Positions 13,228 to 58,589 of a DNA stretch of 64,000 nt are shown here, in pieces. The notes under the pieces are model-generated. The model did no database searches. It saw only the letters and a list, made by a program, of their open reading frames with translations, and was not told where the DNA came from. Within the stretch, counting starts at the first letter, position 1. Every line of letters starts with the position of its first letter. The stretch is from Zhaonella formicivorans (GTDB taxonomy: Bacteria; Bacillota; DUOV01; Zhaonellaceae): NCBI RefSeq assembly GCF_004353525.1, contig NZ_CP085524.1, positions 3,059,001 to 3,123,000 of the forward strand, given 5' to 3'. The position numbers were made by a program, and so were the translations under genes.

Positions 13228-13623
13228 ATGAATCCTCAGGAATTAATTCAAGCCGCGTTAGATGCCAAGAAACATGCTTACGTTCCCTACTCTAAATTCC
13301 CTGTGGGGGCCGCTTTGTTAACCAAATCGGGCAAGATCTATACGGGCTGCAATGTGGAGATTGGCTCCATTGGGCTCACCATCTGTGCGGAACGCACCGC
13401 CGTTGTTAAAGCCGTTTCCGAAGGAGAAAAAGAGTTTAGCGCCATTTGCTGTGTTGCCGATACCGAGGAATATTGTTCCCCGTGCGGTGCGTGCCGGCAG
13501 TTTATTGCTGAGTTTGGCATGGATACTGTCGTCATCATGGCCAATAAGCACGGGGATTATAAGACAGCTCCAATCTCAGGACTCTTACCCCATGCTTTCG
13601 TGCTGGATAAAGAGCTGGACTAA
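13228..13623 (+). CDS. cdd: cytidine deaminase
   Basis: Converts cytidine and deoxycytidine to uridine and deoxyuridine. It has 131 residues, the size of tetrameric Gram-positive enzymes. Zinc ligands are C53 in the CAE motif (with catalytic E55), C86 and C89 in PCGAC. The substrate-binding FPVGAAL and NVEIGS segments are present. AGGGAGGGTGA precedes the ATG. It converges with the pyrimidine-nucleoside phosphorylase gene (4 bases apart), which uses its uridine product. Confidence 0.96.
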   Translation: MNPQELIQAALDAKKHAYVPYSKFPVGAALLTKSGKIYTGCNVEIGSIGLTICAERTAVVKAVSEGEKEFSAICCVADTEEYCSPCGACRQFIAEFGMDTVVIMANKHGDYKTAPISGLLPHAFVLDKELD

Positions 13624-13627
13624 TTCC

Positions 13628-14956
13628 TTAATATGTTTTGGAACCGGAGGAAGTTACGACCCCGAAAATCAAAGGTCTTTTTCCCGGGGCGTTGGCGCTT
13701 AATTCGATTGCCTGCAGTATTTTTTTCTCCGCCAGCTTTGTCTTTTCGGGATCGTTGGAGTGAATAACTGCCAGCACATCGCCTGCCTGGGCGTAATCGC
13801 CCAATTTTTTGTGTAAGACCAGACCTACGGCAAGGTCGATGGAGCTTTCCTTCGTTTCCCGCCCGGCACCTAATACAAGGGAGGCGAAACCGATCTCCTC
13901 CGCATTTATTTTAGCTATGAAGCCGGCTTTGGGGGCTTTAACCTCCGTTATTAGTCTCGCTTTGGGGAGACAGTTGTCAGGACTTTCAACTGCAGTTATG
14001 TCCCCACCCTGGGCTGCAACGAATTCTTTAAATTTATTAAAAGCTGCTCCTTTTTCCACCAGCTCTTGTAACCTGGCTCTTGCTTCTTCTGCGGAAGAAG
14101 CCTTTTTAGCTAAGAGGAGCATGTTGGCGCCTAGGGTTAAACACAACTCGTATAAGTCCTTTGGGCCGTTACCCTGCAAAGTGGCTATGGCCTCTTTGAC
14201 CTCCAGGGCGTTGCCTACGGCATAACCCAGTGGTTGTTCCATGTCCGAAATTACTGCTACCGTTTCCCGGCCAACGCCGGCACCGATATCGACCATTTCC
14301 CTGGCCAGTGCAAAAGAATCTTCTACAGTCTTCATAAAGGCGCCGGAACCCGTTTTTACATCCAGCAGGATCTTGTCTGCGCCGCTGGCAATTTTTTTCG
14401 ACATGACGCTGGCGGCAATTAAAGAAACATTGTCAACTGTGGCGGTGGTATCCCGCAAAGCGTAGAGCTTTTTATCAGCAGGGGCCAGGTTGGCTGTCTG
14501 TCCGGCAATGGCCAGGCCGATGCGGTTCACGTTATTGATAAACTGCTCTTTGGAGAGTTCCACGGAAAAGCCGGGGATTGATTCCAACTTGTCAATGGTC
14601 CCACCGGTATGCCCTAAACCACGACCGCTCATTTTGGCTACCTTGACTCCCGCAGCCGCAACCATAGGGCCCAATATTAGCGAAACTTTATCGCCCACAC
14701 CTCCGGTGCTGTGTTTGTCTACTTTGATTCCCTCAATCCCCGACAGGTCCAGCATTTCACCGGACCGGGCCATGGCCATGGTCAAGTCGGCAGTTTCCCT
14801 CTTAGTCATTTTTTGAAAGAAGATAGCCATTAAGAGGGCTGAGGCCTGGTAATCGGGTATTCTGCCTGTCAAATACCCCTCGATAAAAAATTCTATCTCT
14901 GCCTTAGTCATTTCCCCTCCATTGCGTTTTTTCAGGATAAGGTCATACATTCTCAT
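13628..14956 (-). CDS. pdp: pyrimidine-nucleoside phosphorylase
   Basis: Phosphorolysis of uridine, thymidine and deoxyuridine to base and (deoxy)ribose-1-phosphate. It has 442 residues. The N-terminal helical domain starts [15 protein letters not shown]; the family signature is [15 protein letters not shown] (about residues 110-125), preceded by [13 protein letters not shown], the phosphate and base site; [18 protein letters not shown] near 190 is characteristic. The C-terminal alpha/beta domain carries [15 protein letters not shown] start at 14956; a second ATG six bases on is possible. The gene is convergent with cdd and divergent from the LacI-type regulator across a 348-base gap. Confidence 0.95.
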
Positions 14957-15304
14957 AGCCTCACACCTCGTTTCTCAGTTACTCCACTGATTTATCTTAT
15001 TTTTGAACATGGCATGCACTCTTGTGTGCTGAAAATTTTTCATTGGTCTTTTATTTCTTGCGCTTATTTTAGCAATTTTTGCTAGCCCCTGGCAAGTAGC
15101 TTTAAAAACATACCTGAAGCGATATTTGTACTTTAAAATGCAAATTTATAACTTGTGTGATAAATTACAGTGTATGTACTTCGGGCAGGCAGGAATTTTG
15201 GGTTGGATATAGAAATAATATGCCACACAGAAAATAGAATACACTAATAGGTTTTTGTGGAAACGTTTCCATAAATTTTAGGTGTTGGAACAGGAGGTGA
15301 GAAT
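14957..15304. other. 348-bp gap between divergent genes, holding an operator
   Basis: AT-rich gap between the phosphorylase (minus strand) and the LacI-type regulator (plus strand). It must contain both promoters, but no convincing -35/-10 pair was found. The one clear element is the palindrome at 15258-15271, listed separately. No reading frame or RNA gene was recognised. Confidence 0.5.
15258..15271. promoter_or_regulatory. LacI-family operator (perfect palindrome), also cre-like
   Basis: TGGAAACGTTTCCA is a perfect 14-bp palindrome with the central CG typical of LacI/PurR/CcpA-type operators, 34 bases before the regulator's start. Autoregulation by the adjacent LacI-type protein is the simplest reading. 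It also resembles a CcpA cre site, so carbon catabolite control is possible. Confidence 0.7.
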
Positions 15305-16312
15305 ATTATAACTATCCGGGATGTGGCTAAACGGGCCGGGGTGGCGGTTTCCACCGTTTCCAGAGTTTTAAACCGGAGCGGCTATGTGAGTCCCGGTACC
15401 AGGAAAAAGGTCTTGGAAGCCGTTAAAGAAATGAACTATGAACCTAATCAGGTAGCCCGGAGTTTGGTAGGGAAGGATTCCAAAACTATTGGGCTGATTT
15501 TGCCGGATATAATGAACCCTTTTTTTCCCGCCCTGGCCAGGGGAGTGGAAGATGCGGCCCGCAGGTACGGATTTGCGGTTATCCTGGGAAATACAGATAA
15601 TGAAGCCAAACACCAGGAAGCTTATTTACGAACAATGCAGCAGAAGCAGGTAGACGGCATTATTATTACCGGAACGAACGTATGTGATCGAATGGTGCAA
15701 CAGCTCCTACAACAGGGTATGAAAATCCTATTGATTGATAGGCCTATGCAGGTAGAAGGGGTGGATTTGGTGGCTTGCGACAATATTGCAGGAGCATTAA
15801 AGGCTACTACATGCCTGCTTGAACTAGGCCACAGGAATATAAGTTTCATTTCCGGTCCCCTTGCTTTAGGACCGGCTAAAGATCGCCTGGAAGGTTACCG
15901 ACGGGCCCTGCATACATACGGCATACCGTTTCGCAACGAATATGTGGCAGAGGGCGACTTTCGGTATGAACGGGGATACGAAGCAATGCAGGAACTGTTG
16001 ACTCTGCCAGAGCCTCCTACTGCTGTATTTGCCAGCAATGACCTGATGGCCATAGGGGCGATAAAGGCTATTGAAAAAGCAGGCTTGCAGGTGCCCGATG
16101 ATATATCAGTCGTTGGCTATGACGATATTATGCTGGCTTCTCTTTTTAAACCTGCTCTTACTACTGTGATTCAGCCGTGTTACCGGATGGGGGCGGCAGC
16201 GGCCGAATTATTAATTAAACGCATTACCGGGGAAGAACGGGGCGGTCCGCAACAGATAATCTTTACACCAGCTTTAGCAATCAGGGAAACAGTGGGAGGC
16301 TTAAAACAATGA
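15305..16312 (+). CDS. LacI-family repressor of the nucleoside/ribose operon, probable non-canonical start
   Basis: Transcriptional repressor. HTH at residues about 3-24 (TIRDVAKRAGVAVSTVSRVL), hinge to about 55, then a periplasmic-binding-protein-like ligand domain (TIGLILPDIMNPFFPALARG; SNDLMAIGAIKAIEKAG; VVGYDD). Helix 1 needs TIRDVA, but no ATG, GTG or TTG lies in frame upstream of it: codons back to a stop at 15272 were read. AGGAGG (15292-15297) is 7 bases before ATT at 15305, which is the chosen start; ATA at 15308 is next best. A GTG at 15323 would cut helix 1 and is 25 bases from the binding site. The stop overlaps rbsK (ATGA). Confidence 0.88.
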   Translation: MITIRDVAKRAGVAVSTVSRVLNRSGYVSPGTRKKVLEAVKEMNYEPNQVARSLVGKDSKTIGLILPDIMNPFFPALARGVEDAARRYGFAVILGNTDNEAKHQEAYLRTMQQKQVDGIIITGTNVCDRMVQQLLQQGMKILLIDRPMQVEGVDLVACDNIAGALKATTCLLELGHRNISFISGPLALGPAKDRLEGYRRALHTYGIPFRNEYVAEGDFRYERGYEAMQELLTLPEPPTAVFASNDLMAIGAIKAIEKAGLQVPDDISVVGYDDIMLASLFKPALTTVIQPCYRMGAAAAELLIKRITGEERGGPQQIIFTPALAIRETVGGLKQ

Positions 16313-17229
16313 GTAACGGAGAAAAAATCTTGGTAATTGGGAGTTTGAATATGGATATGTCTGTTAAGACGCCCTATCTGCCTAAAGCCGGGGAAACGGT
16401 GCTGGGCGACGAATTCACTATGGCCCCGGGTGGAAAAGGGGCCAATCAGGCGGTGGCAGCGGCCAGGCTTGGCTGTCCTGTCACAATGCTGGGGCGTGTT
16501 GGTAAGGACCTGTTTGGAGAACAACTGGTTGAAAATTTAAGAAACAATGGGATATCCACTGATTTGATCATCACCGATGGTTCCCATCCCACCGGGGTAG
16601 CGCTGATTAATATCGATGAGCAAGCAGAAAACAGCATAGTGGTAGCTTCCGGAGCAAATAAGCACTGTACTCCGGAAGACCTGCAAGTGCTGGGCAAAAC
16701 TGTGGATGAGTTTAAAATTTTAATGCTACAGCTGGAGATTCCATTGCAAACGGTGGAGGCGGCGGCCAAACTGGCTAAGCAGCATGGGCTGACTGTGATT
16801 CTGGATCCGGCTCCCGCCAGGCAGCTTCCTTCTTCCCTGCTGCAACTGGTAGATATAATTACCCCTAATGAAACGGAAGCTTTTATCCTGACCGGGCTGG
16901 AAGTTCATGATGCGGAATCCGCGAAAGCCGCGGCAGCAGTTCTTTTAGCGCAGGGGGTTAAAAATGTGGTAATTAAGCTGGGCGCCAAGGGAGCGCTGTG
17001 GGCTGCTGAGAACCGCTCTAAACATTTGCCCGGAGAAAAGGTAAATGCCATTGATACAACTGCTGCCGGCGATGCCTTTGGCGGCGGCCTGGCAGCCGGT
17101 CTGGCGGCAGGACAAGATATGCTGTCAGCTCTGAAATTTGCTAATAAAGTGGGGGCGCTGGCTACTACAAAAAGAGGCGCTCAGCCTTCACTGCCTACTT
17201 TGCAGGAAGTAGAAGCATACTTTGCTTAA
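16309..17229 (+). CDS. rbsK: ribokinase
   Basis: ATP-dependent phosphorylation of ribose to ribose-5-phosphate; PfkB family, 306 residues. Marks: the N-terminal VIGSLNMDMSVKTPYLPKAG, the first PfkB signature GGKGANQAVAAARLG (about 43-57), and the second, DTTAAGDAFGGGLAAGL (about 248-264), with the catalytic Asp of GDAF. It overlaps the repressor gene by 4 bases. Downstream nucleoside hydrolases release ribose, which this enzyme would channel into the pentose phosphate pathway. Confidence 0.95.
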   Translation: MSNGEKILVIGSLNMDMSVKTPYLPKAGETVLGDEFTMAPGGKGANQAVAAARLGCPVTMLGRVGKDLFGEQLVENLRNNGISTDLIITDGSHPTGVALINIDEQAENSIVVASGANKHCTPEDLQVLGKTVDEFKILMLQLEIPLQTVEAAAKLAKQHGLTVILDPAPARQLPSSLLQLVDIITPNETEAFILTGLEVHDAESAKAAAAVLLAQGVKNVVIKLGAKGALWAAENRSKHLPGEKVNAIDTTAAGDAFGGGLAAGLAAGQDMLSALKFANKVGALATTKRGAQPSLPTLQEVEAYFA

Positions 17230-17359
17230 TTTTTTTTCCACATCCATATATGAAGTTATGATGAGGTTTGCCCAGTAACTTCTGAAAAAGGGGGGGTTGC
17301 CAGGCTAAGGGTGTAAAAAGAGCAGCATGTAGTTTATAAAATTTAAAGGGGGTAAAAAA

Positions 17360-18430
17360 GTGAAGACAAGAAAAAGTCTGGTTAGCTTGTTGATGATGGT
17401 TATGATTTTGGCGCTGGTGACTGTGGGCTGCGGGCAAAAAGATACTCCTGCCGACGAGGGTAATAAGCAGCAGTCGGAGGAGAAAAAACCTTTGAAAGTA
17501 GCGCTTATCATTAACGGTACCTTGGGCGACAAGGGGTTCTTCGATTCAGCCAACCGCGGCATTGAAGAGGCTAAAAAAGAATTTGGCATTGAAGCTAAAG
17601 TAGTAGAAGCAGGCAATGAGCCTTCCGAATGGGAGCCGGCCTTAAGGGCTGCTGCTGCCGAAGGCCAGTATGATTTGATTATTACCGGTACTTACCAGAT
17701 GCTGGACCATGTCAAAAATATTGCTCCTGAATTTCCAGACCAAAAATTCATTGTTTTTGACGTGGATATTAAAGGAATTCCCAATGTATACTCCATCCTA
17801 TACTCCCAGAGCGAAGGCTCTTTTTTGGCCGGGGCGCTGGCCGGTCTGGTCACTACCAGCAACATGGAGCTGGCTAACCCTGAAAAGAAAATTGGTTTTC
17901 TGGGCGGGATGGATATCCCGATCATCAATGACTTTTTAGCCGGGTATGAGCAAGGAGCTAAATACATTGACCCTGAGATCCAGGTTTTAAAAGGGTATGT
18001 CGGCAATTTCTTCGATGCAGCCAAAGGTAAAGAGTTGACCATGAGCCAGTATGCCCAGGGGGTTGATATTGCTTTTAACGTAGCCGGGGGCGCGGGTTTA
18101 GGTTTATTGGAAGCTGCCAAGGTATCCAACAAATATGCCATCGGCGTTGATTCCAATCAGAACGGCATCTACCCGGGATTTATCCTGAGCAGCATGCTTA
18201 AGAATGTGGATGTTTCTTTAGTAAGGGCCATTCAATTGCACCTTGAAGGCAAATTGCCCTATGGAGATTCGGAAGTTATAGGCATTAAAGAAGGTGCTGT
18301 AGGCCTGGCCAAAGACTCTTTGTATGAGCAGTATGTGCCTCAGGAAATAAGGGATAAATTGGAAGAAATTGAAGGTAAGATCCGGAACGGGGAAATTAAA
18401 GTTAACTCTGTACTGACTGGTTCCAATTAA
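17360..18430 (+). CDS. nupN: BMP-family nucleoside-binding lipoprotein
   Basis: Extracellular substrate-binding lipoprotein of a nucleoside ABC importer (Bmp/Med/PnrA family). The signal peptide MKTRKSLVSLLMMVMILALV ends in the lipobox TVGC; mature Cys near residue 24 is followed by an acidic linker. The core begins LKVALIINGTLGDKGFFDSA, typical of purine-nucleoside-binding PnrA, and has YSQSEGSFLAGALAGLV and GVDSNQNG. GTG start with AAAGGGGG 7 bases upstream. The 130-base gap before it contains a weak hairpin (7-bp arms at 17252 and 17276) but no riboswitch I could recognise. It heads the transporter genes. Confidence 0.93.
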   Translation: MKTRKSLVSLLMMVMILALVTVGCGQKDTPADEGNKQQSEEKKPLKVALIINGTLGDKGFFDSANRGIEEAKKEFGIEAKVVEAGNEPSEWEPALRAAAAEGQYDLIITGTYQMLDHVKNIAPEFPDQKFIVFDVDIKGIPNVYSILYSQSEGSFLAGALAGLVTTSNMELANPEKKIGFLGGMDIPIINDFLAGYEQGAKYIDPEIQVLKGYVGNFFDAAKGKELTMSQYAQGVDIAFNVAGGAGLGLLEAAKVSNKYAIGVDSNQNGIYPGFILSSMLKNVDVSLVRAIQLHLEGKLPYGDSEVIGIKEGAVGLAKDSLYEQYVPQEIRDKLEEIEGKIRNGEIKVNSVLTGSN

Positions 18431-18495
18431 TTTATTGAGGCGGGCGCTGGTCCAGCGCCCGCTGACTTTCAAAGCCAGAGCTGGGAGTGGGAATC

Positions 18496-20046
18496 GTGAA
18501 CGAATTACTACAGATGCAGGCCATCTATAAAGTTTATCCCAACGGTGTCGCGGCTAACAAAGGGGTGGATTTTTCCGTGGCGGAGGGAGAAATCCATGCC
18601 CTGGTGGGAGAGAACGGGGCAGGCAAGTCCACGCTGATGAAAATCCTTTATGGCATGGAGCAGCCTACCTCGGGACAAATAATATATCAGGGGCAGCCGG
18701 TCAAAATCAACAGCCCCAGGGCTGCTATTTCCATGGGGATCGGAATGGTCCACCAGCATTTTATGTTAGTTCCGTCTTTAACGGTGGCGGAGAATATCGT
18801 GCTGGGCAGTGAACCGCGCAGGGGATTGTCCTTTGATCTGCAGCGTGCCAAAGATGCAACCGCTGCTTTAGCCCAAAAATATGGCTTGAACGTGGATCCC
18901 GGTGCTGTAATCGAAAATATATCCGTAGGCAAAAGACAGAGAGTGGAAATTCTAAAGACCCTCTACCGTGGCGCCCGCTTGCTGATCCTGGATGAACCCA
19001 CCGCAGTTCTTACACCCCAGGAAACAGATGAATTGTTTTTAGCGTTGCGAAGTTTGGTTAACCAGGGACATACGATTATTTTTATTACTCATAAGCTGCG
19101 GGAAGTGATGGAAATTTCGGACAGGGTTACCGTGATGCGAGATGGCGCCAGGATCGGGACATTATCTACCAAAGAAACAACCAAAGAACAAATATCCAGG
19201 ATGATGGTAGGCAGGGATGTGCTCCTGCGAGTGACCAAGGAACCGGCTCGACCTAAAGAAACTGTCTTGGAGGTATCTGAATTATGCGCCCTTGATGACC
19301 GGGGCAAGCCGGTTTTAAAAGATGTCTCCTTTCAGCTTAGACAAGGGGAAATACTTGGTCTGGCAGGGGTAGAAGGAAACGGCCAGTCTGAATTGGTGGA
19401 AGTGCTGACAGGTCTGCGGGCGCCTTACCGTGGTAGGATCAAGCTGCTCAACCGGGAAGTAACGGGTTACAAGCCAAAGTTTTTGAGGAAGATGGGGTTG
19501 GCCCATATTCCTGAAGACAGGTTGGTACGGGGGGTTAGTACCCGGGCTTCCATAGAGGAGAATATTCTCCTTGATGTCTATGACCAAAAACCGTATGCGG
19601 GAAGGGTTTTTCTTTCTTCCAGGGAGATTGCCAAGCGGGCCAAAAGTTTGATTGCCGAATTCAAGATTAAAGCCAAAGATGAAAAAACGCCTGTTGGTTC
19701 CCTCTCCGGAGGAAATATGCAAAAAGTAGTAGTAGCCAGGGAACTGGCTAAAAAACCAAAAGTGTTGATTGCTGCCCAGCCTACCAGGGGAGTGGATATC
19801 GGTGCGATTGAATTTATTCATAAGGAGATAATCAGGCAAAGGGACCAGGGGACGGCTGTTCTTCTGGTATCGGCTGAGCTCTCTGAGGTCATGAGTTTAA
19901 GCGACCGGATTGGTGTCATGTATAACGGGCAGCTAGTTGCTTTGTTTGAGGATGCCCGGGCTGTGACAGAAGAAGAGTTGGGTTTATATATGCTGGGTGT
20001 TAAAAAGCAGCAGGGAGAGCCGGGGGGTGAAGACAGTGCAAACTAG
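18496..20046 (+). CDS. nupO: nucleoside ABC transporter ATP-binding protein (two ATPase domains)
   Basis: Energises nucleoside import; a fused double ATPase as in the ribose/BMP transporter class, about 516 residues. Domain 1: Walker A GENGAGKST (about 38-46), signature ISVGKRQRVEIL, Walker B LLILDEPTAVLTPQE. Domain 2 has a degenerate Walker A (GVEGNGQSELV) with LSGGNMQKVVVAREL and LIAAQPTRGVD, where the usual catalytic Glu is replaced (AAQP), normal for this family. The GTG at 18496 is preferred, because the GGGAG site touches an upstream GTG at 18487. The 3' end overlaps the permease gene. Confidence 0.93.
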   Translation: MNELLQMQAIYKVYPNGVAANKGVDFSVAEGEIHALVGENGAGKSTLMKILYGMEQPTSGQIIYQGQPVKINSPRAAISMGIGMVHQHFMLVPSLTVAENIVLGSEPRRGLSFDLQRAKDATAALAQKYGLNVDPGAVIENISVGKRQRVEILKTLYRGARLLILDEPTAVLTPQETDELFLALRSLVNQGHTIIFITHKLREVMEISDRVTVMRDGARIGTLSTKETTKEQISRMMVGRDVLLRVTKEPARPKETVLEVSELCALDDRGKPVLKDVSFQLRQGEILGLAGVEGNGQSELVEVLTGLRAPYRGRIKLLNREVTGYKPKFLRKMGLAHIPEDRLVRGVSTRASIEENILLDVYDQKPYAGRVFLSSREIAKRAKSLIAEFKIKAKDEKTPVGSLSGGNMQKVVVARELAKKPKVLIAAQPTRGVDIGAIEFIHKEIIRQRDQGTAVLLVSAELSEVMSLSDRIGVMYNGQLVALFEDARAVTEEELGLYMLGVKKQQGEPGGEDSAN

Positions 20047-21097
20047 GGTGAGAGATGCGCTGGTGGAAGCGTTTGGGCTTTTCTTAACTATTATAATCTC
20101 GTTAGGGATTGGTATGGTCATCATCCTTTTAACCAGTGAAAAACCCTGGGAAGCATTTCGCATATTATTGGTCAGTCCTTTCAGCAACCTGTACAACTTT
20201 GGCAATGTCTTGGAAAGGACGGTGCCGTTTCTGTTTACAGGTTTAGCCGTGGCTGTGGCTTTCCGGGCCCAGATGTTCAATATCGGAGCTGAGGGGCAGC
20301 TGTATATGGGAGCCTTGGCCGGAACTGTGGTAGCAATCTATATTACGGGACTGCCTCCCGTCCTCCATGTATCCCTGGCTCTTTTAACAGCCATGTTGGC
20401 AGGCGGGTTGTTTGCGGCCATACCGGGCTATTTAAAAGCCTACTGGGACGCCAACGAGATTGTGACCACATTGATGCTGAATTTTGTAGCTACTCTCGGA
20501 GTCTCTTATCTTATCAATTATCCTATGAAAGATGTGGAATCGGGTTATTCGCAAACGGTATTTATTCAGGAAAGCGCCCATTTGGGCCGGATTTTGCCGC
20601 CCTCCAGAGCCCACGTCGGACTTTTTCTGGCTCTTGCGACCGCAGTGCTCCTCTACTACTTCCTGTATAAAACACCCAGGGGTTACCAGATTAGGATGGT
20701 GGGTCTAAACCCTCATTTTGCAGAATATGGCGGAATAAACAGGCAGTTTAACATGGTTTTGGCCATGGTCATCAGCGGAGCTTTGGCCGGACTGGCCGGT
20801 ATCGTTGAAATTCTGGGGATTCACTGGCGTTTGATCGATGCTTTTTCACCCGGTTACGGCTTTGCCGGAATCAATATTGCGCTTCTGGCCAGGAATCATC
20901 CTCTGGCAGTGCCTTTTGCCGCTTTGTTTTACGCCTATCTGTCAGCGGGGGCTGCCTTAATGGAGCGTGGTACCGATGTTTCCCGGGAAGTGGTAAGCAT
21001 CGTGCAAGCTGTTTTGTTCTTCTTTATCACCGCTGAAGGATTATTTGCTTACCTGCGCAGGAAGGCCAAAAAGGGAGGTGAGCCTGGTGTTGAGTGA
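20036..21097 (+). CDS. nupP: nucleoside ABC transporter permease 1
   Basis: Membrane subunit of about 353 residues, BPD_transp_2 type, with roughly nine hydrophobic segments. Characteristic stretches: VPFLFTGLAVAVAFRAQMFN, NIGAEGQLYMGAL (the conserved loop thought to contact the ATPase), and GYGFAGINIALLARNHP near the C-terminus. The GTG at 20036 follows GGGGGGTGA at a good distance; upstream in-frame GTG codons (19997, 20027) lack such a site. It overlaps the ATPase gene by 11 bases and the second permease by 11 bases. Confidence 0.9.
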   Translation: MQTRVRDALVEAFGLFLTIIISLGIGMVIILLTSEKPWEAFRILLVSPFSNLYNFGNVLERTVPFLFTGLAVAVAFRAQMFNIGAEGQLYMGALAGTVVAIYITGLPPVLHVSLALLTAMLAGGLFAAIPGYLKAYWDANEIVTTLMLNFVATLGVSYLINYPMKDVESGYSQTVFIQESAHLGRILPPSRAHVGLFLALATAVLLYYFLYKTPRGYQIRMVGLNPHFAEYGGINRQFNMVLAMVISGALAGLAGIVEILGIHWRLIDAFSPGYGFAGINIALLARNHPLAVPFAALFYAYLSAGAALMERGTDVSREVVSIVQAVLFFFITAEGLFAYLRRKAKKGGEPGVE

Positions 21098-22010
21098 GAT
21101 TATAGATGTTTCCCTCCTGTTTGTAACATTAAGGGTCGCTTCGCCCATTATGCTGGCAGCCATAGGCGGAATGTACTCAGACCTGGCGGGCGCAGTTAAT
21201 ATAGGTCTGGAAGGACTGATGCTGATTTCAGCCTTTTTTGCCGTAGTTGTCAGCGCTTTGTCGGGTAGCGCCTGGCTGGGGTTATTGGCTGGAGTGACTG
21301 CATCCTTGCTGCTGGCGTTGCTTTTGGCATTTTTTAGTTTGAACCTGAAGTCGGATATCATTATTGCCGGTTTTGCCTTGACTATCCTGGCTCAAGGTTT
21401 GTCCATTTTTCTTTTAAGCAATTGGTTCGGCGATAAAGGCACTTTCTTTTCGCCGGATATCAAACCCCTACCGGAGCTCTTTATACCTTTTTTGGGTAAA
21501 ATTCCCGTAGTGGGAGCTATCCTGGACGGTCAGAATATTCTTGTTTACGCAGGTTTGGTATTTGTAATTCTCAGCCATTATGTGATCTATAAAACGCCTT
21601 TTGGCCTGCACCTGCGCTCGGTAGGTGAAAATCCGGAGGCAGCAGCATCTGTTGGGATTAACGTCCGTCGGGTACAGTATATTGCCCTTCTCATCAGCGG
21701 CTTATTTGCCGGCCTGGCAGGAGCAAATCTCTCCCTAGGCTACCTGACTATTTTCGTGCGCAATATGACGGCAGGCCGCGGTTTCATTGCACTGGCTGCG
21801 GTGCTATTCGGCGGGAGGAAACCTTTCGGGGTAATGTTGGCTGCTTTGCTCTTCGGTTTTGCCGACAGTCTGGGCAACCGCCTGCAGTCCTTGAATATGC
21901 CTTCCCAGCTGGTGCTGATGCTGCCCTATGCATTTACCATAGTAGCTATGGTTATTTTAGCGGTACGCAAGCAGAAGAAAAAGCTAAGGGTTTATGAAGA
22001 ACACTCTTGA
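21087..22010 (+). CDS. nupQ: nucleoside ABC transporter permease 2
   Basis: Second membrane subunit, about 307 residues, paired with the preceding permease. BPD_transp_2 marks: PIMLAAIGGMYSDLAGAVNIGLEGLML (read in two parts around SDLAGAVNIG), GLHLRSVGENPEAAASVGIN and GRGFIALAAVLFGGRKP. The start is GTG at 21087, 8 bases after GGGAGGTGA, which lies inside the previous gene. The carboxy end is basic (RKQKKK). Together with the lipoprotein and double ATPase it completes a BMP-type nucleoside importer. Confidence 0.9.
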   Translation: MLSEIIDVSLLFVTLRVASPIMLAAIGGMYSDLAGAVNIGLEGLMLISAFFAVVVSALSGSAWLGLLAGVTASLLLALLLAFFSLNLKSDIIIAGFALTILAQGLSIFLLSNWFGDKGTFFSPDIKPLPELFIPFLGKIPVVGAILDGQNILVYAGLVFVILSHYVIYKTPFGLHLRSVGENPEAAASVGINVRRVQYIALLISGLFAGLAGANLSLGYLTIFVRNMTAGRGFIALAAVLFGGRKPFGVMLAALLFGFADSLGNRLQSLNMPSQLVLMLPYAFTIVAMVILAVRKQKKKLRVYEEHS

Positions 22011-22033: not shown

Positions 22034-22996
22034 ATGAAGAAGATTATCCTGGATTGCGATCCCGGACATGATGACGCTCTGGCTATTCTTTTAGCCCTCA
22101 GTTCTCCTGAATTAAAGGTTGAGGCAATTACCACAGTAGCCGGGAATCAAACCTTGCCTAAGACATCTCTGAACGCTTTAAAGGTGCTGACTGCTGCCGG
22201 GAGAACCGACATTCCGGTGGCTGCGGGGATGAGCCGCCCCCTGGTGCGGGATTTGGTGGTGGCGCCCCATGTCCACGGCGAGACCGGGTTGGACGGAACG
22301 GATTTGCCTGAACCGGCTTTTAAGCTGGACAAGAGGCATGCGGTGGATTTAATAATCGAAAAGGTGTTGAACTCCCCGGAGAAAATTACCGTTATCCCTG
22401 TGGGTCCCCTGTCCAATATAGGTATGGCCCTTTTAAAGGAACCCCGGGTTGCGGAAAATATCGAGCGGATAGTATTGATGGGCGGTTCCATAGCCGAAGG
22501 GAACATTACACCTTCTGCTGAATTTAACATCTATGTGGATCCTGAGGCTGCCAAGCTTGTTTTTGAGTCGGGCATTCCCATTACCATGGTAGGTCTTGAT
22601 GTAACCCATAAAGCCCTAATTACCTATAATGATTTTCAGACAATCAGGGCTATTGGGACGCCGCTGGCTATCATGGTAGCTGAACTTCTGGACTTTTATG
22701 CTAAGTTTCACGATGAAGTCTATGGATTTGGCGGCGTCCCCCTCCATGATGCCTGTGCCGTAGCCGAGGTAATCAAGCCGGGTATTATCACAACCAAACC
22801 CATGTACGTGGCCGTAGAAACCCAGGGAGCCCTGACTGCGGGCAGGACAGTTTGCGATATTTGGGGAGTTACTGGAAAACCGGCCAATGTGGACGTGGGA
22901 ATAGATATTGACGTTCAGGCATTTAAAGAAATGCTGTTTGCGGCGTTGAAGAGTTATACCAACCAAGGCCTGTGGGGGGATGACATTGTCAGTTAA
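22034..22996 (+). CDS. inosine-uridine preferring nucleoside hydrolase 1
   Basis: Hydrolyses the N-glycosidic bond of imported ribonucleosides to base and ribose; 320 residues. The calcium-binding signature LDCDPGHDDALAIL is at residues 6-19. VAGNQTL, PVAAGMSRPL, HVHGETGLDG, and the EFNIYVDPEAA and GVPLHDACAVAEV segments match the family, the last with the conserved Asp. ATG at 22034 with AAGGAGG upstream; the frame extends 27 bases further but with no binding site. It overlaps the second hydrolase by 17 bases. Confidence 0.94.
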   Translation: MKKIILDCDPGHDDALAILLALSSPELKVEAITTVAGNQTLPKTSLNALKVLTAAGRTDIPVAAGMSRPLVRDLVVAPHVHGETGLDGTDLPEPAFKLDKRHAVDLIIEKVLNSPEKITVIPVGPLSNIGMALLKEPRVAENIERIVLMGGSIAEGNITPSAEFNIYVDPEAAKLVFESGIPITMVGLDVTHKALITYNDFQTIRAIGTPLAIMVAELLDFYAKFHDEVYGFGGVPLHDACAVAEVIKPGIITTKPMYVAVETQGALTAGRTVCDIWGVTGKPANVDVGIDIDVQAFKEMLFAALKSYTNQGLWGDDIVS

Positions 22997-23936
22997 GAAA
23001 AAGCTGGTCCTTGATGTGGATACAGGCGTCGATGATGCCATGGCTATTCTTACAGCTCTGAAAGCGCCGGAGGCCGAAGTGCTGGCAATCGGCACCGTGT
23101 GGGGAAACGTTCCTGTTCCCCTGGCCACGGAGAATACCCTCAGGGTACTGGAAGTGGCAGGAGTTGATGATGTGCCTGTGGCAGCAGGAGCGGCCAGACC
23201 CCTTTTAGCACCTTTTGTTACCGCTGAATTTGTACATGGTGAGGACGGGCTGGGCAATACGTTTATGCCTAAACCCAGAGGAAAAGCAACCGGCGAACAT
23301 GCGGCTGACCAGTTGATTCGCCTGGCCAGAGAATATCCCGGCGAAATTACTTTGGTACCCGTAGGGCCCCTGACTAATATTGCCCTTGCTTTGACTAAAG
23401 AACCGCAGCTGCCGGAGTTAATCAAGGAAGTAGTACTCATGGGCGGAGTGGTTTGTGCTCCCGGAAACATGGGGCCTATGGTGGAAGCCAATATCGGCCA
23501 TGACCCGGAAGCGGCCAAAATGGTGCTTGCTGCAGGCTGGCCCATTACCATGGTTGGCTTGGATGTGACAACCAAAGCCTGCATGACCGAAGAGCATCGC
23601 CGGGCATTGGCAGAAAGTACGAGTAACGTTGCCCGCTTTGTGCATAGAATTACCCCCTTTTATTTGGACGCGTACGAGAAGTTTATCGGTGAGCGCAAAT
23701 GTGCCATGCATGACCCTATGGCAGTTTTGGTAGCCCTTGATCCTAGCCTGGTAAAAACAGCCGAACTGTATGTGGACGTGGAAACAAGGGGTGAACTGAC
23801 CAGGGGCATGACGGTAGCTGACCTGCGGGGTTTGATTAACCCGGAGATTATGCTGAAAAAAGCCAACGTCAAAGTTTGCCTGGAAATAGACGAACGGCGT
23901 TTTATGGAACGATTTATTACACTTCTCATGTCCTAA
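22980..23936 (+). CDS. inosine-uridine preferring nucleoside hydrolase 2
   Basis: Second hydrolase of 318 residues, a diverged paralogue of the gene before it. Signature LDVDTGVDDAMAIL (about 9-22); GTVWGNVPVPLATENTLRVL, PVGPLTNIALALTKEP, NIGHDPEAAKMVL and CAMHDPMAVLVALDP carry the calcium and ribose contacts. NIGHDPEA replaces the FNIYVDPEA of the first copy, so the two may prefer different nucleosides or a modified one. GTGGGGGGATG supplies a weak start context. Followed by the AIR-synthase-like gene after 9 bases. Confidence 0.93.
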   Translation: MTLSVKKKLVLDVDTGVDDAMAILTALKAPEAEVLAIGTVWGNVPVPLATENTLRVLEVAGVDDVPVAAGAARPLLAPFVTAEFVHGEDGLGNTFMPKPRGKATGEHAADQLIRLAREYPGEITLVPVGPLTNIALALTKEPQLPELIKEVVLMGGVVCAPGNMGPMVEANIGHDPEAAKMVLAAGWPITMVGLDVTTKACMTEEHRRALAESTSNVARFVHRITPFYLDAYEKFIGERKCAMHDPMAVLVALDPSLVKTAELYVDVETRGELTRGMTVADLRGLINPEIMLKKANVKVCLEIDERRFMERFITLLMS

Positions 23937-23945
23937 GGTGAAAAT

Positions 23946-24857
23946 ATGAAAATAGAATTGGAAGTTCAAGGATTGGAACTGGAAATATTGGAGGGAGTAA
24001 GTAAGACGCTGAGGTTGCCCTTGCCCTGCCTGGTGCAAGAGCTGCTGGGCAGCTACTGCCGGCTGTTAAGCGGAGAAGTCAAGCAAGCAAAAAAAGTGCG
24101 GGATCTCAGCCTTTACCCTCTTCTGCCCGGTATAGCTTTAGTTATCGCATGTGATTCCGATGGGGGGATAGGGCCCAAAGAGCATGATCTGGTACGGATT
24201 TCTGCCTATGAGCTGGGCAGGTTCGGTACCAGGGTTCCACTGCTGGAACTCTTGGCTGCCGGGGCCAAGCCTTTTTTGGTGGTTGATACCCTGACAGTGG
24301 AAATGGAGCCTACCGGCAAGGAGATAATTGCCGGCGTAGCCGATGAAGTTAGGGCTGCAGGGCTTGATCCCGCCATGGCTTTGACGGGCAGTACTGAAGA
24401 CAATGTACCCACAACTTCTACCGGAATGGGTGTAACGGCTATCGGTGTTGTACGGGAGGCTGATTTACGGGCAGGTAAATCTCTTCCCCGGGACATGGTA
24501 GTCTGTGTGGGCGTGCGGAAAAGCGGACCTGAGGATCAAATTATTTCTGCAGACCCTGAAATTATGGATTTACCGGCAATGGTAAGGATTAATTCTCTAC
24601 CCTGTGTTCACGATGTACTGCCTGTCGGTTCCCGGGGGATCTTCTATGAGGCGCAGCAGCTGGCCCGGTCTGCTGGTCTTGCCTTTTGCCCTGATCCTTA
24701 TTTTCCCCTGGACGGGAATAAATCGGGAGGACCCGGGTCCTGCGTGTTGGTTACACTTTCCGCAGAAAACTATGAACTGCTGCATAAAATTTCTGCTAAA
24801 CCCTGTTTTGTTGTGGGCAGGCTAGATGCAGTTGGAGAGGAGAGAAAAAATGCTTAG
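23946..24857 (+). CDS. AIR-synthase-related (PurM-like) protein, unassigned substrate
   Basis: A 303-residue protein of the PurM/ThiL/SelD/HypE superfamily, whose members bind ATP and activate a substrate by phosphorylation. Visible: ALVIACDSDGGIGPKEHD (about 64-81; the acidic ATP/metal-binding segment), ELLAAGAKPFLVVDTLTVEM, GSTEDNVPTTSTGMGVTAIG (about 140-160) and the C-terminal CPDPYFPLDGNKSGGPGSCVL. It is not PurM itself, as it lacks the longer PurM layout and is not near other purine synthesis genes. Its setting between nucleoside hydrolases and an ADP-ribosylglycohydrolase suggests a step in nucleoside or base salvage; that is inference. Confidence 0.75.
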   Translation: MKIELEVQGLELEILEGVSKTLRLPLPCLVQELLGSYCRLLSGEVKQAKKVRDLSLYPLLPGIALVIACDSDGGIGPKEHDLVRISAYELGRFGTRVPLLELLAAGAKPFLVVDTLTVEMEPTGKEIIAGVADEVRAAGLDPAMALTGSTEDNVPTTSTGMGVTAIGVVREADLRAGKSLPRDMVVCVGVRKSGPEDQIISADPEIMDLPAMVRINSLPCVHDVLPVGSRGIFYEAQQLARSAGLAFCPDPYFPLDGNKSGGPGSCVLVTLSAENYELLHKISAKPCFVVGRLDAVGEERKNA

Positions 24858-25851
24858 TTTTTCAAAAGCTTACGGTGCTTTGATGGGTACGGCCATTGGC
24901 GATGCCATGGGTATGCCCGCTTACTTTTTTCCTGAAAAAACGTGGGAGCGGTTGGGTTGGATTGATGACCTGCTGGATGCTCCTCCGGACCACGAAGTGC
25001 ACAAAGGAAATGTGAGGGGCAAAGTGACTGACGATACGGAGCAGGCTATTTACTTGGCTCTGGCTTACATTGAAGGAAACGGGATTACGGTGGAAGGGGT
25101 AGCAAAAAAATTAACGGAATGGTATCTGGCGAGCGGCGGTGATCAGAATCAGTTTATCGGCCCCAGTTCAGCCAAGGCCCTGAAAGAAATCTTGGCAGGG
25201 AAGAATCCCAGGGAGACAGGCCTCTTTGGTGAAACCAACGGTTGCGTGATGCGCATCAGCCCAGTTGGTATTGTGAACGGAGGAAATATGGAGCGAGCAA
25301 TTCAAGACGCTGTGATTTCCTGTACACCTACCCATTTTACTACAGTGGCTGTTTCTGCTGCTGCCGCTGCTGCCGCTGCCATTGCTGAAGCCATGACTGA
25401 CTGCCCCACTGTAGAATCAGTAATTGCCGCAGCCAAGCAGGGAGCTGAAGAAGGCAAAAAATACGGCCGCTTGGTGATTACTCCTTCCATCAGCCGGCGC
25501 ATTGATCTGGCTGTGGAAATTGCCGCTTCAGGTAAAGAAGTGAAGGAAAAACTTCAGGATTTATATAATCTGATTGGTACCGGTCTGGCTGCGGCAGAAA
25601 TTGTGCCCGCCGCTTTGGGTATCTTTGCCATGGCTGCAGGTGACCCGGTAAAAACAGTAATTTACGCTGCCAATGCCAGCGGTGATGCAGATACTTTAGG
25701 GGCTATTGCCGGCGGCATTGCCGGAGCTTTTGCCGGGATTGACGGCTTTAAGGGCCGGTGGGTAGAGACGGTGAGTGCGGCTAATCCCCAGTTTAATTTT
25801 AAGGAAGTAGCCAAAGAGCTGCTCAAAGTAGCTGAAAACAGGGTATTTTAA
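24850..25851 (+). CDS. ADP-ribosylglycohydrolase family protein
   Basis: Member of the DraG/ARH family, 333 residues, which cleaves ADP-ribosyl or related N-/O-ribosyl bonds with two magnesium ions. Metal-binding motifs: GTAIGDAMGMP (about 12-22), VTDDTEQA (about 59-66) and the C-terminal GDADTLGAIAGGIAGAF (about 277-293). The ATG at 24850 follows GGAGAGGAGAG; it overlaps the AIR-synthase-like gene by 8 bases. Because it is embedded in a nucleoside operon, a small ribosylated metabolite rather than a protein is a plausible substrate. That is inferred. Confidence 0.88.
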   Translation: MLSFSKAYGALMGTAIGDAMGMPAYFFPEKTWERLGWIDDLLDAPPDHEVHKGNVRGKVTDDTEQAIYLALAYIEGNGITVEGVAKKLTEWYLASGGDQNQFIGPSSAKALKEILAGKNPRETGLFGETNGCVMRISPVGIVNGGNMERAIQDAVISCTPTHFTTVAVSAAAAAAAAIAEAMTDCPTVESVIAAAKQGAEEGKKYGRLVITPSISRRIDLAVEIAASGKEVKEKLQDLYNLIGTGLAAAEIVPAALGIFAMAAGDPVKTVIYAANASGDADTLGAIAGGIAGAFAGIDGFKGRWVETVSAANPQFNFKEVAKELLKVAENRVF

Positions 25852-25861
25852 ACTGTCTTCC

Positions 25862-27028
25862 ATGAAACAGAAGGATAGCTTATTAAACAAAAACGTTATT
25901 CTGGTGTTTTTTGTTACTTTTATATTTTTTGCCACTCTTGACATGACTGTTTATCCCTTGCCATTATATGTGCTTGAGCTGGGAGGAGGGCCCCGGGAGA
26001 TTGGCTATATTGCCGGGACATTCAGCTTTTCTGCTATTTTATTCAGACCGCTGCTTGGCAGAATAAGCGATGCCAGGGGTGATAAAGGCATTCTTTTAAT
26101 TGGAATGATAGCCTCTGCCACGGCGCCTCTCCTGTATTTAGCCTTTTCCGATTTGCGCCTGGTGGCCCTGGTCAGGGCCTATCATGGCCTGGGCTTAGCA
26201 GCTGTGGTGCTGGCTACCCAGGCCATGATGGCAGGTTTAGCTCCTTCCGGCAAAAAAGGACAAGCTTTAGCGCTGCAAGGGATTGCCGACGGTTCGGGGT
26301 TGATGTTAGGGCCGCCTTTGGGACAGTGGATGATGGAAGCTCAGGGTTTTCATCAGCTGTTTATCAGCATTGCTGTACTCGCAGGGGTAGGATTTTTCCT
26401 GGCTCTGTTGACTGATGAACCTAGGAATAATATTGGCGACGTAAAGGTGACAGAACAAGAAATTGCAGGTCCTTTCTTGCAGCCGCAACTGCTCCTGGCT
26501 ACCTTGTTGGGTTTTGCTGTAGCTTTTGTCTTTGGTTCCGTACTTACTTTTCTGCCTGTATATGCCGAACAGTTGACGGTCCGGTTTAAAAGCGGGCTTT
26601 TTGTTATCCTGGCACTGTTTGCTATCATAGGCAGGTATACCACCGGCTTGTTATCTGATAAATACGGCAGAAACAAGGTGGTGCTGCCTGCAGTAGTTTT
26701 GATTGCAAGCGGGGCAATGCTCCTAGCCTTTTGGACTGCATCCTTCGGCATTTACCTGGCCACAGCATTGGTTGGGATTGGGTTTGGGTCGGGACATTGT
26801 GGCCTTTTGACCATTGCTGCTGAGGGAAGCTCCTCTCAATTCAAGGGCCGGTCTATTTCGCTGTATGCTACCGTATTTGACCTGGGAATAGCTGCTTCAA
26901 GTTATATTTTCGGGGTTATAGCGGAATGGAGCAGCTACGGAACAGTATTTACAGCTGCCGGGCTTTTGGGGCTGGCGCTGGGGCTGCCCCTCTATTTCCG
27001 TTTGATTCGCTTGCCATTATGTTCGTAG
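25862..27028 (+). CDS. MFS transporter
   Basis: Major facilitator of 388 residues with about 12 membrane segments. The MFS motif between helices 2 and 3 is read as RPLLGRISDARGDKGIL (about residues 58-74), and a second copy in the C-terminal half as GLLSDKYGRNKVVLP. It starts 11 bases after the glycohydrolase gene, with no clear binding site, so it may be translationally coupled. As the last gene of the nucleoside run it may import or export a base or nucleoside; the substrate is not readable from sequence. Confidence 0.85.
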   Translation: MKQKDSLLNKNVILVFFVTFIFFATLDMTVYPLPLYVLELGGGPREIGYIAGTFSFSAILFRPLLGRISDARGDKGILLIGMIASATAPLLYLAFSDLRLVALVRAYHGLGLAAVVLATQAMMAGLAPSGKKGQALALQGIADGSGLMLGPPLGQWMMEAQGFHQLFISIAVLAGVGFFLALLTDEPRNNIGDVKVTEQEIAGPFLQPQLLLATLLGFAVAFVFGSVLTFLPVYAEQLTVRFKSGLFVILALFAIIGRYTTGLLSDKYGRNKVVLPAVVLIASGAMLLAFWTASFGIYLATALVGIGFGSGHCGLLTIAAEGSSSQFKGRSISLYATVFDLGIAASSYIFGVIAEWSSYGTVFTAAGLLGLALGLPLYFRLIRLPLCS

Positions 27029-57132: not shown

Positions 57133-58589
57133 GTGCGCCCGGCATGGGCGCTGTCTATAAGGTGAAAGTCCCGAACGGTGAAGGTAGCAGTAGCCGTAGC
57201 TTAAGACAAGGGTGTCCACCGTGAGGTGGAATCTGAAGGAAGTCGGCGGCAAACCTCCGGCCCGACGAACAGAAACCACATAAGAGGCTAGCGGCAGTTG
57301 GATGAGCTTGCACTACAAAGCAAAGTCCTTGCTACCAAAGGCTGCCGAGAGTAAATGTGGCGGGTAGATGGAGGAAAAGACAGCGCTCTTACCCGGGGAG
57401 GTCTGCCGGTAATATTGGTAACACCGATAACCCAGGTTGCGAGGCCTGGCTGAACCGGCAGAAGTCAGCAGAGGCCATAGTAGCCAGTATAGACGTCACA
57501 CTGGTGAAGGGCCGAACACGAAGCGAGGGATTGACTTGGTACGTTCGAGAGATATGCAAAGACAGCAGAAAACCCCATATGGGGCCTGCCATGGGGAGGA
57601 AGCGGTGAATACGCAGGGGACCCACGGAGGGCCGAGTGTATCTCCGGCACAACCCAGGAACACATCCCACGGAAGAGATGGTAACGGCCTGATGGAGAAA
57701 GTGGTAGACAGGCAGAATATGTTGCTTGCTCTACGGCGGGTAGAGGAGAACAAAGGTGCTCCAGGTATCGACCACGTCACGGTAAACGACCTCCGTGATT
57801 ACGTACGGGAGCACTGGGTCAGAATCAGAGAAGAACTCCTCAAGGGAACCTATCAGCCCCAACCGGTACGTCGGGTCGAAATCCCGAAACCCAGCGGCGG
57901 AACAAGGCTACTAGGTATCCCGACCGTCATAGATCGCCTAATCCAGCAGGCACTTCTACAAGTACTTACACCTATCTTTGACCCGGAATTTTCACCATTC
58001 AGTCACGGATTCAGACCCGGACGGAGGGGACATGACGCGGTCAGACAGGCAAGGAAGTACGTTGAGGAAGGATATACCTGGGTAGTGGATATGGATTTGG
58101 AGAAATTCTTTGACCGCGTAAACCACGACATCCTAATGGCGCGAGTGGCCCGCAAAGTCAAGGATAAGCGGGTATTGAAACTCATCCGCCGCTACCTTCA
58201 AGCCGGAGTAATGGTCAACGGAGTAGTAATGAGTACCGACGAAGGTACACCTCAAGGAGGCCCTTTAAGTCCATTATTGGCTAACATACTACTTCATGAC
58301 CTAGACCGGGAGTTGGAAAGACGCGGACACAGATTCGTACGTTACGCCGATGATTGTAACATCTACGTCCGAAGCAAGCGAGCCGGAGAGCGGGTGCTCG
58401 AGAGCATTAAATCCTTCCTGGAGGATAAGTTAAAACTCAAAGTGAACAATGCCTATTGGCATAGCCAGGGCCTAAAGAGTATAACCGAACGTTATCATCA
58501 AATTCGTCAAGCTTGGTGAACCGCCGTATACCGAACGGTACGTACGGTGGTGTGAGAGGACGGGGGTTAATCACCCCCTCCTACTCGAT
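57133..58589 (+). mobile_element. group II intron, class C-like, internally deleted
   Basis: The 5' end GTGCGCCCGGCATGGGCGC followed by TATAAGGTGAAAGTCCCGAA matches the conserved group II intron start. Near the 3' end, domain V is read at 58521-58550 (CCGCCGTA...TACGGTGG with a GAAC-type loop), and a domain VI hairpin follows (AGGACGGGGGT / ACCCCCTCCT), ending about CTACTCGAT. It sits directly after the Nfu terminator, the preferred target of class C introns. The total of about 1.46 kb is shorter than usual because the encoded maturase has lost its C-terminal part. Confidence 0.85.
57554..58519 (+). pseudogene. group II intron reverse transcriptase, truncated by an internal deletion
   Basis: Intron-encoded protein of about 321 residues. 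RT motifs in order: KGAPGIDHVTV, RLLGIPTVIDRLIQQALLQV, HGFRPGRRGHDAV, VVDMDLEKFFDRVNHD (catalytic Asp), GTPQGGPLSPLLANILLHDL and RYADDCNIYV (YADD box). After LKLKVN the text jumps directly to NAYWHSQGLKSITERYHQIR, which resembles the extreme C-terminus of such proteins. The thumb, maturase (X) domain and part of the linker are missing, though the frame is preserved. It should be unable to splice or mobilise the intron by itself. The start codon is uncertain. Confidence 0.85.

Follow-up and report, generated by a model that had tools for sequence, protein, structure and literature searches.

Alpha-ribazole is the lower-ligand nucleoside of cobamides, and CobS joins its phosphate to the corrinoid. 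Gray and Escalante-Semerena are said to have described in 2010, in Listeria innocua, an alpha-ribazole kinase, CblS, together with a transporter, CblT. The same roles are given to the two proteins in passages of PMC6461909, PMC6167548 and PMC4086397, and according to passages of PMC5643483 alpha-ribazole is an alpha N-riboside that bacteria release and that occurs, like its 5'-phosphate, in bloom waters. The subject of the present analysis is a relative of CblS, here named CblS2, that is encoded directly before a protein of the ADP-ribosylglycohydrolase (ARH) family in an operon of Zhaonella formicivorans, within a stretch of 64,000 nucleotides (contig NZ_CP085524.1, positions 3,059,001 to 3,123,000; hereafter the window). 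CblS2 resembles CblS in being a homologous putative kinase of the PurM superfamily, and those of its loci that have an energy-coupling factor (ECF) transporter also have a CblT-like S component; it differs in forming a separate clade with a signature of its own, in being tied to ARH rather than to cob genes or a cobalamin riboswitch, and in occurring mostly in genomes that lack CobS. Moreover, no CblT is present in the window operon, and none was found in the window genome by a search run without a positive-control genome.

Three further systems invite comparison. Pseudouridine kinase and pseudouridine-5'-phosphate glycosidase act in sequence, so that a riboside is phosphorylated and then split into ribose-5-phosphate and a base; the same phosphorylate-then-split logic is proposed here for CblS2 and ARH, although the pseudouridine enzymes are unrelated and act on a beta C-riboside, whereas alpha N-ribosides are the proposed substrates of CblS2 and ARH. 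With ARH1, ARH3 and DraG the window-type ARH shares its fold, its metal-site motifs and a proposed specificity for alpha-glycosidic bonds, but it is encoded with small-molecule importers and kinases, and no protein target is indicated. ARH1 and ARH3 cleave alpha and not beta linkages, alpha-NAD included, and accept varied alpha leaving groups, as passages of PMC9738213 report. The Escherichia coli genes yegTUV, with their regulator YegW/GgaR, are stated in a passage of PMC10819704 to be of unknown function; their module likewise joins a GntR regulator and a nucleoside-type transporter to a kinase and a member of the ARH family, but uses a sugar kinase of the PfkB type and a transporter of the major facilitator superfamily (MFS), where CblS2 operons use CblS2 with ECF or BmpA-type transport. 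The window operon is not a module of the yegTUV type, as its regulator is a LacI protein and it encodes a true ribokinase; one other locus (L056), however, contains all four of the yegTUV-type classes (transporter, ARH, PfkB, GntR) plus CblS2, and by analogy the E. coli genes may represent the same scheme with a PfkB kinase.

The CblS-like protein

The open reading frame (ORF) at 23946..24857 on the + strand encodes an AIRS-domain protein (PF00586, 1.6e-5, 25.7 bits, cut-off 24) that the first-pass annotation had called AIR-synthase-like. That identity was not borne out, as the PurM model TIGR00878 yields 15.4 bits against a cut-off of 236.35, and the nearest known family is CblS: the protein aligns over its whole core with a Listeria protein (31% identity) and a Levilactobacillus protein (35%), and has about 47 additional residues at its N-terminus. 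The Listeria match lies beside cobU, cobS and cobC, and those of Levilactobacillus and Cytobacillus have cob genes and an ECF S component as neighbours; by the passages cited above, such positions are occupied by CblT, which transports alpha-ribazole, and CblS, which phosphorylates it. In the plasmid collection, the annotated neighbourhoods of the CblS family are B12 loci only. A predicted structure of the window protein (predicted local distance difference test, pLDDT, 92.1) has the two-domain fold of SelD, HypE, ThiL and PurM, with matches to SelD (Z 22.2, root mean square deviation 3.7, 240 aligned), ThiL (Z 19.6) and PurM (Z 18.0), while sequence searches of solved structures, with the protein and then with a CblS alignment, gave no match.

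CblS2 stands apart in a tree of 87 selected rows, where the 23 ARH-linked CblS rows are all contained in a single 36-row clade (support 95/92) and the other 51 rows include no ARH-linked one; the window row sits in this clade and not among the cob- or CblT-linked rows. A two-residue insertion (D197-Q198 in the window protein) marks the 36-row clade and is absent from 51 of 51 outside rows, and further residues are typical of the clade (in window numbering Asp72 in 32 of 36 rows, Ser193 in 34 and Pro195 in 34), so that CblS2 and CblS differ in the vicinity of the DxxGG and KVG motifs. By its sequence the AIRS-like protein is a member of the CblS (alpha-ribazole kinase) family and of a separate subfamily, CblS2. 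It is the only CblS in the window genome.

Some genes of the CblS2 clade stand without CblT, ARH or cob neighbours, namely those of six loci in Brevibacillus and Salipaludibacillus (L184, L185, L186, L187, L188 and L220, of which L188 is absent from the tree). An ARH gene hidden near these lone genes was sought and none occurs within the fetched flanks; CobS is present in all four of the genomes tested (L184, L185, L187 and L220).

The ARH partner

The last of the four ORFs (24850..25851, + strand; longest ORF from 24826) encodes an ARH-family protein (PF03747, 1.5e-58, 199.2 bits) in which the TDD and DxDT motifs, where two metal ions are presumably bound, are intact. Residues T68, D69, D70, D287 and D289 are invariant in a 54-row alignment, T290 is kept in more than 90% of rows, and these positions align to DraG. 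The predicted structure (pLDDT 95.7) matches MJ1187 (Z 39.1) and ARH3 (Z about 38), including ARH3 with ADP-ribose, ADP-ribosyl-arginine and alpha-NAD, and also DraG. A plasmid search with this protein at 1e-30 gave no matches.

On the ARH tree there is one main CblS-linked group and another that is PfkB-linked, the ARH of L056 lying inside the latter. A single, monophyletic origin of the CblS-ARH link was considered and rejected, as the label needs four changes on this tree, so that either several origins of the link or frequent exchange would have to be assumed. Bacillus litorisediminis (L176), whose genome gave no CobS match, has, close to its CblS2-ARH operon but on the opposite strand (16832-20119), another two diverged genes of the ARH family.

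Recurrence of the pair

Within a sample of 398 genomes of the window's phylum, the CblS family was found in 96 genomes at 98 places; the 97 places other than the window were inspected, and in 96 BLAST recognised the CblS gene. Of these 96 loci, 87 have a CblT-like gene as direct neighbour; within 8 kb, 33 have a cobU, cobS, cobC or cobP gene and 7 an ARH gene, so that pairing is not general in the family: 89 of the 96 have no same-strand ARH within 8 kb. Nevertheless, 8 pairs of CblS and ARH within 10 kb on one contig were observed in the 398 genomes where about 0.35 were expected (Poisson 4e-9), the expectation being derived from 47 ARH genes in CblS-bearing genomes, tallied by hand. The grouping of CblS with ARH is more than chance.

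When 84,980 species genomes were scanned with an alignment of ARH-linked CblS proteins, 80 loci were obtained, 24 of them with a same-strand ARH in an operon-sized neighbourhood; since the query was built from ARH-linked rows such rows are over-sampled, but the contrast within the tree is independent of their number. Six of the 24 repeat genomes already in the phylum sample, leaving 18 new loci, which with seven from the phylum sample and one from the Actinomycetota (L250) bring the linked loci beyond the window to 26. They are spread over Bacillota, Ignavibacteria/Bacteroidota, Neomarinimicrobiota and Actinomycetota and over two transporter types, ECF/CblT and BmpA-type nucleoside ATP-binding cassette (ABC) transporters. 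Culturable carriers include Brevibacillus fluminis (L198) and Bacillus litorisediminis. The first-pass annotation had left it to other genomes whether the AIR-like gene keeps company with the others, and with ARH it does so across phyla. In the Actinomycetota the gene occurs in 3 of 396 genomes (L192, L250 and L251), and the third, which has neither ARH nor BmpA nearby, counts against pairing in that phylum. Searches of a collection of open-licence papers listed none that describes this pairing; the single paper listed for ribazole together with ADP-ribosylglycohydrolase, PMC9503650, mentions the two in unrelated passages.

Separation from cobamide synthesis

Two contrasts set the ARH-linked loci apart from other loci of the family. 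The Rfam cobalamin riboswitch was found in none of 23 ARH-linked loci (23 of the 24, L177 being left out), nor in the window, as against 13 of 24 other CblS loci (Fisher 2.6e-5), these 24 having been hand-picked from 56 as seven cob-linked loci followed by mixed sets of ten and seven, with one lone member of the ARH-type clade (L185) among them. CobS was found in 2 of 24 ARH-linked genomes, a set in which G229 and G204 have CblS and ARH on different contigs, and in 31 of 32 controls, picked from CblS-bearing genomes without ARH linkage, part of them outside the tree and one (G069) positive on a fragment. With the comparison confined to the phylum and to genomes within completeness and contamination limits, CobS occurs in 2 of 9 ARH-linked genomes, the window's among them, and in 29 of 30 controls. 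CobT was found in 1 of the 24 ARH-linked genomes. In place of B12 control, the ARH-linked operons have GntR or LacI regulators. In most of its carriers, the CblS2-ARH pair is separate from cobamide synthesis.

Operon types and the exchange of kinases

The linked loci take several forms. The first, in the order GntR-CblT-CblS2-EcfAA-EcfT-ARH, occurs in Bacillota and Ignavibacteria/Bacteroidota. A second is a BmpA-type nucleoside ABC operon with CblS2 and ARH, represented by the window and by two other linked loci, one in Bacillota (L056, in the order GntR-ARH-PfkB-BmpA-ABC-Perm-Perm-CblS2) and one in Actinomycetota (L250, in the order GntR-ARH-BmpA-ABC-Perm-Perm-CblS2). Related arrangements are seen in a metagenome-assembled genome (MAG) named Rubrobacter (L189), where CblS2, ARH and a nucleoside hydrolase overlap and are followed by a reverse-strand response regulator and then a BmpA operon; in a member of the Euzebyaceae (L192), where permeases precede a nucleoside hydrolase and CblS2 that overlap by 4 bases, a second hydrolase and a PfkB gene lie on the opposite strand, and no ARH is present on the 7.1-kb contig; and in L209, where a BmpA operon is divergent from CblS2 and ARH is missing. 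In a third form CblS2 adjoins ARH, accompanied in L181 and L195 by a BtuF-like protein, while L219 and L224 show neither of the two transporters. In L178 and L183 a BtuF-like protein opens the operon, and a CehA/McbA-like metallohydrolase and two TonB receptors come after; in L195 the ARH gene is followed by two TonB receptors. The four TonB receptors that were scanned, from L178 and L195, match the B12 receptor model best, with all scores below its cut-off, and the BtuF-like proteins match several binding-protein models; such neighbours weakly favour alpha-ribazole from cobamides as one substrate.

The metallohydrolase of the two Ignavibacteria loci (L178 of Melioribacter roseus, 14425-16068; L183, 14400-16052) carries a signal peptide and lies between ARH and the TonB proteins that resemble B12 receptors. 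A possible role for it is the extracellular release of nucleosides from corrinoids.

Among 41 ARH genes near an ECF T gene, in regions hand-picked around search matches (six loci being second copies of genomes included twice), 24 have CblS without PfkB (5 of these being second copies of one genome), 16 have PfkB without CblS, none has both and one has neither. The one with neither (L062) has a probable other half of its contig (L093) that carries GntR-CblT-CblS2. Ten of the PfkB proteins scored 103-156 bits with the ribokinase model, whose cut-off is 299.65. The simplest reading of these counts is that CblS2 and PfkB would do the same job on a riboside. Many operons with an ECF ATPase and T component, a PfkB that is not a ribokinase, and ARH were seen besides (L063-L080), apparently an uncharacterised ECF riboside system.

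Proposed function and alternatives

Alpha-ribosides are suggested as substrates by the adjacency of an alpha-ribazole-type kinase and a hydrolase whose family is alpha-specific. The best explanation of the window operon, to which a probability of roughly one half may be given, is that of a ribonucleoside-use operon with two branches. Gene content, families, folds, intact motifs, the conservation of the CblS2-ARH pair across phyla and transporter types and its separation from cobamide synthesis in most carriers are observed here, while substrate, anomer, order of steps and each catalytic activity are inferred. In one branch, the BmpA-type ABC transporter would import beta-nucleosides, the two nucleoside hydrolases would cut them, and the ribokinase would phosphorylate the ribose so freed. 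In the other, CblS2 would use ATP to phosphorylate the 5'-hydroxyl of imported alpha-ribosides, alpha-ribazole or close kin, and ARH would then split the resulting 5'-phosphate at its alpha-N-glycosidic bond, with ribose-5-phosphate and a free base as the products. Phosphorylation before hydrolysis is the likelier order because the CblS2 ECF operons lack a ribokinase while the window has one besides CblS2.

Several observations tell against the two-branch explanation. The window genome itself carries two CobS and two CobT genes, so that an alpha-riboside phosphate could enter cobamides there too; pairing with ARH is seen in 23 of the 36 clade rows, the remainder being lone (6), cut by a contig end (4) or otherwise placed (3), and 7 of 8 genomes from the unpaired part of the clade carry CobS. 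In the ARH tree the window protein sits on a long branch (1.19), placed between the PfkB-linked group and the CblS-linked one, and the riboswitch and CobS contrasts ignore relatedness, many of the ARH-linked genomes being MAGs of unknown completeness.

It is also conceivable, if unlikely, that the logic of the two enzymes holds but that the substrate is another, such as alpha-nicotinamide riboside, alpha-adenosine, ribosylated amino acids or some other modified ribonucleoside; the BmpA-type importer suggests nucleosides, passages of PMC9738213 credit ARH1 and ARH3 with a tolerance of varied leaving groups, and CblS2 is unlike CblS near its two motifs, but the S component of the ECF operons is of the CblT kind, and B12-receptor-like and BtuF-like neighbours occur in L178, L183 and L195. 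Salvage of the cobamide lower ligand, with CblS2 making alpha-ribazole phosphate for cobamide assembly, like CblS in Listeria, and ARH trimming unwanted alpha-ribosides or recycling the base, would be in keeping with the homology to CblS, with CobS and CobT in the window genome, and with the pairing of CblS and CblT for alpha-ribazole salvage in passages of PMC6461909 and PMC4086397. This is improbable given that 22 of 24 ARH-linked genomes have no CobS, that the riboswitch is missing from all 23 loci scanned, that CblS2 forms a separate clade with an altered signature, and that regulation appears to be by GntR or LacI proteins.

The absence of any ribokinase-like gene from the ECF operons with CblS2 and ARH would also suit the reverse order, in which the riboside is first split by ARH and the free ribose then phosphorylated by CblS2 (or PfkB), CblS2 being a replacement ribokinase. 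Such an order is very unlikely, as a true ribokinase is already present in the window operon, L056 has a PfkB kinase besides CblS2, and CblS is known as a riboside kinase from passages of PMC6461909. The least probable of the explanations considered is that ARH reverses protein ADP-ribosylation and that its place in the operon is incidental: the full ARH fold, with Z 38 to ARH3-ADP-ribose complexes, and the metal motifs are what this would predict, but the coupling to a kinase and a small-molecule importer recurs in many phyla and the DraG model gives the window protein just 60.2 bits against a cut-off of 337.

The first-pass annotation is partly supported. Its nucleoside-salvage core with an added module stands, comprising a BmpA-type importer, hydrolases and a true ribokinase, and its suggestion of an ATP-using PurM-superfamily enzyme and a glycohydrolase acting on ribosides holds as an interpretation of the sequences, but the ADP-ribose-derived nucleosides that it put forward are less likely substrates than alpha-ribosides of the alpha-ribazole kind. 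The emphasis would accordingly move from an AIR synthase and ADP-ribose to an alpha-riboside kinase and an alpha-riboside-phosphate hydrolase.

The window operon and its surroundings

All genes of the operon lie on the + strand. It opens with a LacI-type regulator (15323..16312, an ORF whose family was read from sequence), which overlaps by 4 bases the ribokinase gene rbsK (16309..17229), a true one by its curated score (TIGR02152, 373.2 bits, cut-off 299.65). The transporter genes follow: a BmpA/PnrA-type nucleoside-binding lipoprotein (17360..18430; PF02608, 3.2e-67), an ABC transporter ATPase with two ATP-binding halves (18487..20046), an ORF with homologues that adjoin BmpA in L056, L189 and L250, and permeases 1 (19997..21097) and 2 (21045..22010), likewise ORFs with homologues. 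After a gap of 23 bases come nucleoside hydrolase 1 (NH1; 22034..22996; PF01156, 3.4e-108), which is RihA-like with an intact DCDPGHDD motif although its 403.6 bits with the RihA model lie under the cut-off of 433, and nucleoside hydrolase 2 (NH2; 22980..23936; PF01156, 5.4e-102) with an intact DVDTGVDD motif. By domain and DxDxxxDD motif, both belong to the inosine-uridine nucleoside hydrolases. The ORFs of NH1, NH2, CblS2 and ARH were all confirmed as intact and as parts of a single operon, for which a gene for an MFS transporter (25862..27028; PF07690, 1.8e-55), 10 bases past ARH, is a candidate last member.

The first-pass annotation had called the PurM-like protein, the second hydrolase and the glycohydrolase translationally coupled, with overlaps of 8-17 bases. 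Two junctions do overlap, NH1/NH2 by 17 bases and CblS2/ARH by 32 if ARH starts at its first ATG, or by 8 if it starts at 24850, where the ATG is preceded by a GGAGAGG run, but NH2 and CblS2 are separated by 9 bases. The second hydrolase, which had been described there as diverged, is intact and a member of a set found in at least two other loci (L189 and L192); it is 47% identical (BLAST) to the hydrolase directly before CblS2 in L192, where the hydrolase on the opposite strand is NH1-like.

The four genes from NH1 to ARH have a G+C content of 51% against 46% for the window, and two genomes of the same family (G001 and G002) have a CblT-linked CblS but no ARH match; a horizontal acquisition of the four genes would fit this pattern. 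Upstream of the operon (13228-14956) lie a cytidine deaminase-like gene and, on the opposite strand, a thymidine phosphorylase-like gene, both named by reading their sequence, which makes the area a nucleoside-use neighbourhood. Elsewhere in the window (57215-57512, + strand) Rfam models of group II intron domains match at two adjoining places (RF02001, 150 bits; RF01998, 76 bits).

Implications

More broadly, and rather more tentatively, many bacteria may possess a dedicated pathway of alpha-riboside catabolism, in which a 5'-kinase, CblS2, that split off from B12 lower-ligand salvage and an ARH acting as a 5'-phosphate hydrolase turn the B12 nucleoside and similar alpha-ribosides into ribose-5-phosphate, and of which the widespread operons with a transporter, PfkB and ARH, yegTUV among them, would be a version with another kinase. 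If this is so, alpha-ribosides, which are known mainly as parts of B12 and as products of ADP-ribosylation, would be nutrients with enzymes of their own, and a large set of ARH-family proteins now named for protein de-ADP-ribosylation would have roles with small molecules. It would also offer a testable function for operons such as yegTUV of E. coli, and would call for caution in genome surveys that read every gene of the CblS family as evidence of cobamide salvage.

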